Assembly (NCBI GenBank): GCA_019058515.1
Contig: JAHPYY010000178.1
Span: 1 to 7,930, forward strand
From: Promethearchaeota archaeon
GTDB lineage: Archaea; Asgardarchaeota; Lokiarchaeia; Sigynarchaeales; SOKP01
Direction: 5' to 3'
Length of the DNA stretch: 7,930 nucleotides
Under the pieces are notes generated by a model. It was not told the DNA's origin and did no database searches. It worked only from the letters and a program-made list of their open reading frames with translations. Below, piece after piece: positions 978 to 7,206 of the stretch. The position numbers and the translations under genes were made by a program. Positions within the stretch are counted from its first letter, which is position 1. Each line of letters starts with the position of its first letter.

Positions 978-1373
978 TTACAACCGTTTCAGGTGTGTAT
1001 CTTTAAAGTCGGAGGGATATTTAAGTCCATATCCCATCATCCTGTCTAAGCTAATATGTCCTAACCAAATTATACTAATTTGTAAAATTAAGGGGATATT
1101 TAAACTTAAACCAATCAAACTTAGGATTACTAGCCATATGTATATATGGCCAAAATTATAAATCGTGCTTCCCTAATTTGAGTTTTTTAAATATCCTAAC
1201 ATGAACACATCCGGAGCTAGAATTAAGACAATAAATAAAATCCAATTACCATTTATAAGGATAAAGTAAAGTATTGAGAAAATAAAAATCGCTGTATTTT
1301 CTAAGATTAGAAGTAATCTTACTCTGCTTAACTCGTTTAATCTCTACTTCAATCTACCATTCGAATCAGTCAT
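978..1373 (-). pseudogene. DUF4260 family membrane protein with two in-frame TAG codons
   Basis: Reading from the ATG at 1373 to the TAA at 978-980 gives 131 codons in one unbroken register, interrupted only by TAG at codon 10 (1344-1346) and codon 67 (1173-1175). The product is a small polytopic membrane protein matching DUF4260 (PF14079, from memory). Its first helix is about 20-40, then LAPDVFMLGYL (52-62), IYNFGHIY (71-78), and the diagnostic end GHISLDRMMGYGLKYP (105-120) and FKDTHLKRL (123-131). The function of the family is unknown. There is no ATG, GTG or TTG between the first TAG and the conserved domain, and a well-placed promoter points to the ATG at 1373, so codon 10 would be translated. 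At codon 67 relatives usually carry a hydrophobic residue before Gly, so TTG to TAG is a simple origin. It may be a nonsense pseudogene or a live gene using TAG as sense; I cannot decide from one window. Confidence 0.8.
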
Positions 1374-1395: not shown

Positions 1396-1406
1396 TATTA
1401 ATACTT
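1396..1406 (-). promoter_or_regulatory. TATA/BRE-like promoter for the DUF4260 gene
   Basis: On the minus strand AAG is followed by TATTAATA (1403-1396), centred about 26 bp upstream of the ATG at 1373. That spacing would start the transcript at or next to the start codon, as in leaderless archaeal mRNAs. It resembles the boxes ahead of the genes at 3941, 7032 and 7378. Confidence 0.45.
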
Positions 1407-3573: not shown

Positions 3574-3827
3574 ATGAGGAGATTTAGAAGATTTTTCGAA
3601 TAGAAGAAGCTCCCAGCAATACCACAAATTGTAGTTGGTGTAAAGAAGTTATTAAGAAAGGTTCGATTAGACTTAGATTTGCCCCACCTAAAGGATATAA
3701 TTTTTATTGGCATCAAGATTGCGGGATCAAATATTTAGAAGGGCTAATAATTATACTAAAAAATGGCGAAAGAGGTCCTATTAACCGAGAAGAAGCAGAA
3801 AGAGCTCGAAGAGAAGCAGGGATATGA
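3574..3827 (+). CDS. Small PARP-type zinc-finger protein, apparent one-base frameshift near the start
   Basis: From 3588 to the TGA at 3825-3827 a frame encodes a compact zinc finger but has no ATG, GTG or TTG before the finger. An ATG at 3574 in another frame reads MRRFRRFF and joins this frame exactly if one T is added to the T5 run at 3592-3596. The joined protein has 84 residues: MRRFRRFFRIEEAPSN, then C20-S-W-C23, KEVIKKGSIRLRF, and W46-H47-Q-D-C50. This C-x2-C...H-x2-C spacing, with 'I-KGS-RL' after the first pair and 'WH--C' at the end, matches the zf-PARP fold (DNA-break binding in PARP-1 and DNA ligase III), with a shorter loop. The tail (NREEAERARREAGI) is a charged helix. DNA binding is inferred. 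Alternatives are an ATT start at 3591 or a recently broken gene. T-rich terminators follow. Confidence 0.68.
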
Positions 3828-3919: not shown

Positions 3920-3940
3920 CTAATAATTATGATACAAACT

Positions 3941-4468
3941 ATGGAAGATACTCTTTTTGAACATCTTGATAAGGTTCAATTGAAAGAACTACTCGTTAAA
4001 TGTTGGATGACTCATGACGGCTCTTGGTTTTACAGTTGCGTTCAAGATTTCGGTATTAAAGCGGCTAATAAACTAAACAAAGCAGCAATTAAAAACCTCG
4101 CTCCGATTGAAATGAACAGAATAAAGAAAGCTTTAGGTTGGGAAAAAGAAAAAATAAGAACATTTGAGCAAGTAAAATCCTTTATTAATAATGGTTTTAG
4201 CATATTAAAAGGTGATTTTATGGATTTTGAGTATACTTTTCCAGAAAAAAATCGTATGCATTGGGAAATGAACAAATGTTTTGCGTATAACGGCATGAAG
4301 ATGATAGGTGTTGAAAAACATTATGAATGTGGCGTTATTTATCGAGTTAGGTGTTGGTTAAATTCGCTGGGAATCAAACATAAAGTTGAGCCTGAAATTA
4401 GTAAATGCTTACTAAATTCTCGTGAAAAATGTTCTGGAGATATTATCATTTTTTTGAATGAAAGTTAG
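3941..4468 (+). CDS. DUF6125 family protein (L-2-amino-thiazoline-4-carboxylate hydrolase-like)
   Basis: The protein has 175 residues from this ATG, or 179 from the in-frame ATG at 3929; the later start is preferred because the promoter-like box sits 26 bp upstream of it. Numbered from 3929, it begins with a helix (LKELLVKCWMTHDGSWFY, 19-35), then VQDFGIKAANKLNKAAI (38-54), a cysteine-tyrosine-rich core with HWEMNKCFAYNGM (111-123), HYECGVIYRVRCWLNSLGI (131-149), and closing cysteines C160 and C168. This order, especially 'THDG-WF', 'FGI--AN-LN' and 'YECG', is what I recall for DUF6125, common in archaea and anaerobic bacteria and related to ATC hydrolases. The substrate is unknown and catalysis is not demonstrated; seven cysteines suggest metal or thiol chemistry. 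It ends in TAG, with 14 further codons before a TAA at 4511. It stands alone after the zinc-finger gene. Confidence 0.7.
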   Translation: MEDTLFEHLDKVQLKELLVKCWMTHDGSWFYSCVQDFGIKAANKLNKAAIKNLAPIEMNRIKKALGWEKEKIRTFEQVKSFINNGFSILKGDFMDFEYTFPEKNRMHWEMNKCFAYNGMKMIGVEKHYECGVIYRVRCWLNSLGIKHKVEPEISKCLLNSREKCSGDIIIFLNES

Positions 4469-4546: not shown

Positions 4547-4971
4547 CTAATTTCTATTTTTCCTATTTATTAAATAAGTTGAGTATTCCAAATTATTTTC
4601 TAGGCAAGCTTCATTACAGAGCCGCATCCTACGCAGTTAAATGACTTTAATGGTTGTTTCCGTATAACAAAAGATATGACATCTATTGACATCTTACACG
4701 CGTCATTGCATTTTCCACATTCAATACATTTTGTTAATCCAGTTGTAATTTATTGTCCCACACATCTTCCAATAATTCCTAATAATGTACCAGCAGGACA
4801 ATAATAGCAATAACTTCGCGAACCTATTAATATCCACCCAATAAGCATTAAATATATCTCAAAAATGAGGTACATTATATAGTCACAGAATATGGCATTG
4901 CCAATTTGCAAGGAAAAACAACGCGAGAACGAGCTAATCTATTAATTATTATTACGCACCCAAATTTTCAT
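4547..4971 (-). pseudogene. Decayed 4Fe-4S membrane protein (NapH/CcoG-like, Fer4_5 and ferredoxin domains)
   Basis: Minus-strand translation recovers a membrane helix and two iron-sulfur motifs in pieces. An in-frame ATG at 4875 leads into MYLIFEIYLMLIGWILIGS (helix), then SYCYYCPAGTLLGIIG, the turn seen in NapH-like proteins. A TAA at 4750-4752 (CAA TAA ATT, probably once AAA) interrupts before TKCIECGKCNDACKMSIDV, a C-x2-C-x2-C-x3-C cluster motif. A second motif, NCVGCGS, continues only after a one-base shift near 4618 as CNEACLENN and ends at TAG (4547-4549). The N-terminus is unclear: MKIWVRNN at 4971 and NRLARSRVVFP lie in different frames. Intact relatives pass electrons at the membrane. 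At least one nonsense codon and one non-homopolymer frameshift make this a probable pseudogene. It follows the aconitase X operon on the same strand, but a T-tract terminator lies between. Confidence 0.72.
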
Positions 4972-7031: not shown

Positions 7032-7189
7032 ATGGGAATTAATTGGGTAGGTGATGGAAAAAAACTAGCTAATCAAATCAAAAAGTTGAAAAAATCTATT
7101 ATATTACGAATAATCCAAGATTAGGTGATGTTGTAAAAATAGAGAATAAGTATAAAAAATTGCTTAATGACAACTTTTTATTTTTTTAA
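7032..7189 (+). CDS. Small orphan protein gene, apparent one-base frameshift
   Basis: The ATG at 7032 opens MGINWVGDGKKLANQIKK and, as written, ends at TAG after 30 codons. Adding one A to the A6 run at 7089-7094 joins it to a second frame, IYYITNNPRLGDVVKIENK followed by YKKLLNDNFLFF and TAA at 7187-7189, giving 52 residues of lysine-rich, soluble-looking protein. I do not recognise a family. The second segment reads like coding sequence (Asn-Asn-Pro-Arg turn, an amphipathic helix), and the unit has a near-ideal promoter and a long T-run terminator, which supports a real transcription unit. It may be a small gene hit by an assembly error, a truncated fragment of a larger protein, or a transcribed non-coding RNA whose ORF is accidental. 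Confidence 0.45.
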
Positions 7190-7206
7190 TGCTAAGAGAA
7201 CTAAAC

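Follow-up and report, generated by a model that had tools for sequence, protein, structure and literature searches.

In the available part of a survey of Asgard archaea, the Pyl gene cluster is absent from Lokiarchaeia and Thorarchaeia, while both carry a tRNAPyl of unknown role (PMC9723677); these tRNAPyl calls were made with Prokka. The accessible text of a review also places pylT in Lokiarchaeota and Thorarchaeota (PMC9499178), and the available excerpt of a further study states that pyrrolysine is not encoded by Freyarchaeia and Atabeyarchaeia (PMC11291895). Here, we describe a DUF4260 gene that carries two in-frame TAG codons. Our favoured interpretation, to which we assign a probability of roughly 0.78, is that this gene of a Lokiarchaeia-like archaeon has recently been inactivated.

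The window, by which we mean the whole 7930 nt stretch of DNA that was analysed, has a GC content of 32.6%. The large subunit of aconitase X (AcnX) encoded there shares 86, 85 and 80% identity with its three best other matches and, among the best 120 of 3365 matches, the closer ones that bear a name belong to Promethearchaeota, Lokiarchaeota or Helarchaeota. The named relatives of the DUF6125 protein, among the best 120 of 393, come from Promethearchaeota, Lokiarchaeota, Lokiarchaeia, Hodarchaeota, Thorarchaeota and Hermodarchaeota. Judged from these similarities, the source would be a Lokiarchaeia-like archaeon.

Reading frame and the two TAG codons

The DUF4260 (PF14079) reading frame occupies positions 978..1373 of the minus strand, and runs from an ATG at 1373 through 131 codons to a TAA. 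Two stops lie inside it, a TAG at codon 10 (1344..1346, minus strand) and a TAG at codon 67 (1173..1175, minus strand), and a scan of all 131 codons found no internal TAA or TGA. The register, coordinates, both TAG sites and terminal TAA given in the preliminary description, as well as the lack of internal TAA and TGA, were all confirmed on re-reading. The description had also claimed that the gene is free of indels, which agrees with our alignments: the DUF4260 domain is gapless against the family, and the inspected rows of an alignment of 45 relatives differ only in the length of the N-terminal tail.

With TAG read as X, the translation matched PF14079 at 126.5 bits (E 6e-37) against a cut-off of 27, residues 21–130 covering profile positions 3–112 of 113, which places the protein in the DUF4260 family across the domain. 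When the 131 codons were subjected to mononucleotide shuffling, only 2 of 20000 shuffles were without in-frame TAA and TGA, so that the open frame is not a product of chance. The protein is predicted to be small and all-helical, and is probably located in the membrane. Its read-through model reached a mean pLDDT of 87.0; a fold search with this model against solved structures returned no match at E up to 10, and none of the nine matches from a search of viral models lay at E up to 0.001.

The two TAG codons fall at different kinds of site. Codon 67 adjoins the invariant G68, and its column holds I in 17, V in 12, L in 10, A in 2, M in 2, N in 1 and P in 1 of the 45 relatives. The earlier expectation that relatives carry a hydrophobic residue here is thus upheld (43/45 have I, V, L, A or M). 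K, R or Q occurs in none of the 45, and a position that is hydrophobic and never K, R or Q is ill suited to pyrrolysine. The N-terminal tail that contains codon 10 is not conserved, and 27 of 45 rows have a gap in that column; neither TAG, therefore, occupies a site that would suit a lysine-like or catalytic residue. Two DUF4260 relatives, P0010 and P0030, are themselves short at the N-terminus (96 and 74 aa), and an upstream stop could have cut these frames.

Translation from the ATG would end after nine codons, at the first TAG, and the second TAG would block any restart ahead of the conserved second half. According to the codon list, codons 11 to 55 contain no in-frame ATG, GTG or TTG, and codon 56 is an in-frame GTG. 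As a common start is absent between codons 10 and 56, a working protein is not expected. It might be argued that the true start lies downstream, so that only codon 67 matters, or that the two halves are made separately, given that many relatives lack the tail around codon 10 and that the DUF4260 match begins at residue 21. However, the stretch devoid of common start codons counts against this, and codon 67 would still break the conserved domain; we find this explanation scarcely credible.

A TATA-like box at leaderless spacing had also been pointed out upstream of the gene. The sequence TATTAATA is indeed present at 1396..1403 on the minus strand, −30 to −23 from the DUF4260 ATG, and among six gene starts compared, eight consecutive A/T at −30 to −23 were seen at DUF4260 only. 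The box is not rare by chance, however: a comparably TATA-like 8-mer occurred at that spacing for 312 of 4125 intergenic positions (7.6%), and eight consecutive A/T for 734 of 4125 (18%). Against this background, TATTAATA carries little weight.

Preservation of the gene body

The 45 relatives share 40–59% identity with the DUF4260 frame across shared columns, and the 43 that have at least 110 residues are predicted proteins with intact frames, against which the frame in the window is interrupted. We asked how much of the remaining gene body has been kept. Thirty positions reach a conservation of at least 85% among the 43 relatives when the window sequence takes no part in their definition, and the DUF4260 frame retains the conserved residue at every one of them (30/30); in a leave-one-out version of the same test, only 8 of the 43 relatives miss no position. 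The leave-one-out profile score of the frame ranked 9th of 44, the profile for each scored protein having been built from relatives less than 60% identical to that protein. In a tree, the frame clusters with P0001–P0008 (support 99/96), and its end branch of 0.53 compares with 0.65 for P0008 of the same group. Damage to the gene is confined to two codons. Because the gene body shows no relaxation of selection by either the 30-position test or the profile rank, the only kind of inactivation that fits is a recent one.

We also considered a neutral model, in which two nonsense hits correspond to about 30–50 substitutions. Given two such hits, the probability that 23 conserved sites go unhit was 0.014–0.10, a range obtained by integrating out the substitution number under two priors, and it fell to 0.003–0.047 when the absence of indels was also required, at an assumed indel rate of 0.1 per substitution. 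The 23-site set is partly circular, and these probabilities lean low, since the alignment that defined the sites contained the window; the 30-position test, redone without it, finds the same intactness free of that bias but yields no probability. The chance that both nonsense hits are TAG was 0.045–0.09. Under neutral decay, a gene that has acquired two TAGs but is otherwise undamaged would be a fairly improbable outcome. The intactness of the gene speaks against long neutral decay, and is compatible with recent loss combined with luck, with a tolerated TAG or with base errors.

Under recent inactivation, which we favour, both TAGs would be fixed in the population, the loss of function would be recent and TAG would be decoded by no tRNA.

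TAG usage and other damaged frames in the window

The preliminary description presented a pseudogene and a sense TAG as alternatives, and noted that other genes of the window seem to have TAG as their terminator. One such gene was found: the DUF6125 gene (3929..4468, plus strand) has a TAG terminator. When its frame was continued past the TAG and aligned to 119 relatives, 114 did not reach the TAG column, and the remaining five had 1 to 11 residues at or beyond it. As 114 of 119 relatives end before this column, the TAG of DUF6125 is apparently an ordinary stop. The plural did not hold, since six other complete genes checked end in TAA; the other complete genes in the window are open frames by construction. 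Judged from the single gene DUF6125, TAG is still a terminator, which is not what genome-wide reassignment would predict.

Three further searches were negative. RNA folds downstream of the two TAGs were no better than those of shuffles (z −0.47 and 0.53) and so lacked a structure indicative of recoding; no Rfam family was found in the window; and no tRNA was found there, a weak result because the window is short.

These observations bear on the possibility that TAG is decoded, at least in part, by a CUA tRNA (tRNAPyl or another suppressor), which would allow synthesis of the full-length protein and make TAG tolerable where constraint is weak. Such decoding would account for two lesions of one type in a frame that has no internal TAA or TGA and is otherwise fully conserved, and it would draw on the tRNAPyl that Lokiarchaeia carry without a Pyl gene cluster, as described in the available parts of both sources (PMC9723677; PMC9499178). 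It sits poorly with the hydrophobic residues of relatives at codon 67, with a DUF6125 gene that is terminated by TAG where its family usually ends, with the absence of the Pyl cluster from Lokiarchaeia in the accessible part of the survey (PMC9723677), with the unremarkable structure of the RNA past the TAGs and, weakly, with the lack of a tRNA in this short window. We consider it very unlikely.

The orphan tRNAPyl of Lokiarchaeia, as reported in the accessible survey text (PMC9723677), nevertheless keeps suppression alive as an idea. A CUA-anticodon tRNA of this kind, charged with an ordinary amino acid, would suppress TAG in the Lokiarchaeia-like archaeon, and TAG would then drift into weakly constrained genes yet still end others; we hold this joint proposal to be highly doubtful. 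If TAG were read, the orphan tRNAPyl of Lokiarchaeia would gain a job, and an Asgard lineage for which no Pyl machinery is known would be seen to tolerate amber codons.

Other frames of the window are damaged in ways that do not involve TAG. A remnant of a 4Fe-4S (Fer4_10) gene at about 4600..4911 on the minus strand is interrupted by a TAA in frame, and inspection by eye placed the second cluster motif of this remnant in another frame; the piece downstream of the TAA scored 29.4 bits to Fer4_10 against a cut-off of 25.5. A small frame near 7033–7190 (plus strand) is seemingly split at a run of A, beyond which it would carry on in a different frame. Together, the Fer4_10 remnant with its TAA and the split frame show that non-TAG damage is present near DUF4260, and base errors could account for some of it. 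A zf-PARP-like frame at 3588–3827 (plus strand), whose score of 22.5 bits does not reach the cut-off of 39.3, is without a common start in its own frame, with a TAG just upstream and an ATG-led stretch in the next frame.

The condition of these small frames also bears on a third explanation, namely that the living gene is intact and that the TAGs, or one of them, stem from erroneous bases or from a minority strain in a metagenome assembly. The window is apparently an entire contig of 7930 bases, its other split-looking small frames are explicable by errors, and all but two codons of the DUF4260 gene look functional, as would be expected. On the other hand, two errors in a short gene that both yield TAG would be a coincidence. 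In addition, the protein database includes a 991 kb contig with an identical AcnX, and the best DUF4260 match in that database is 58–59% identical; thus, no near-identical intact copy is listed from the 991 kb contig, which may not carry the locus. We regard errors or strain variants as unlikely.

Between a pseudogene and a sense TAG, codon 67, the end of DUF6125 and the Fer4 remnant favour the pseudogene, and direct positive evidence for a sense TAG is lacking.

Comparison with other DUF4260 genes and with pyrrolysine systems

The distribution of DUF4260 is patchy. In the phylum of the genome that carries locus L018, DUF4260 was present in 37 of 198 genomes, and none of those 37 matches had an internal stop. 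The phylum represented by L004 gave seven DUF4260 matches in 299 genomes, of which five were partial and none contained a stop. The bacterial family to which the genome of L010 belongs had the gene in 117 of 222 genomes (128 matches); a stop is listed for two of these matches, TAG in one case and TAA in the other, and in one further genome the gene lies across two frames. Direct reading of these three loci (L069, L070 and L071) showed that the 'TAG' and two-frame cases are frameshifts in otherwise well-kept genes, and that only a decayed fragment is left in the TAA case. Three broken copies among the genomes of 128 matches indicate that broken DUF4260 copies exist, at a low rate.

A contig scan recovered 67 DUF4260 loci, none archaeal by title. 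Two of them, L060 and L066 from Paenibacillus, had a stop in the anchored frame, and both are partial C-terminal DUF4260 matches. Among the DUF4260 copies examined, the window gene alone combines two nonsense codons with a frame that is otherwise intact. Viral contigs contained one distant DUF4260 locus (L068, 47% identity) and no AcnX neighbourhood, and PADLOC assigned no family to the four proteins submitted.

The likeness of the window gene to pyrrolysine UAG decoding, as described for Sifarchaeia and methanogens in the available part of the survey (PMC9723677), is that an in-frame TAG occurs in a probable Asgard gene. Unlike the genes of pyrrolysine systems, it is not a methylamine methyltransferase, and one of its TAGs stands at a hydrophobic position; in the accessible survey text, moreover, Lokiarchaeia are without the Pyl cluster (PMC9723677). 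As a pseudogene, the DUF4260 case would be ordinary. It matches the family across nearly the full profile while its frame is interrupted, as in a recently inactivated nonsense pseudogene of DUF4260, and broken copies are also found in bacteria (L069, L070 and L071), but these are broken by frameshifts or survive as a decayed piece, whereas the window gene has two nonsense codons and no frameshift.
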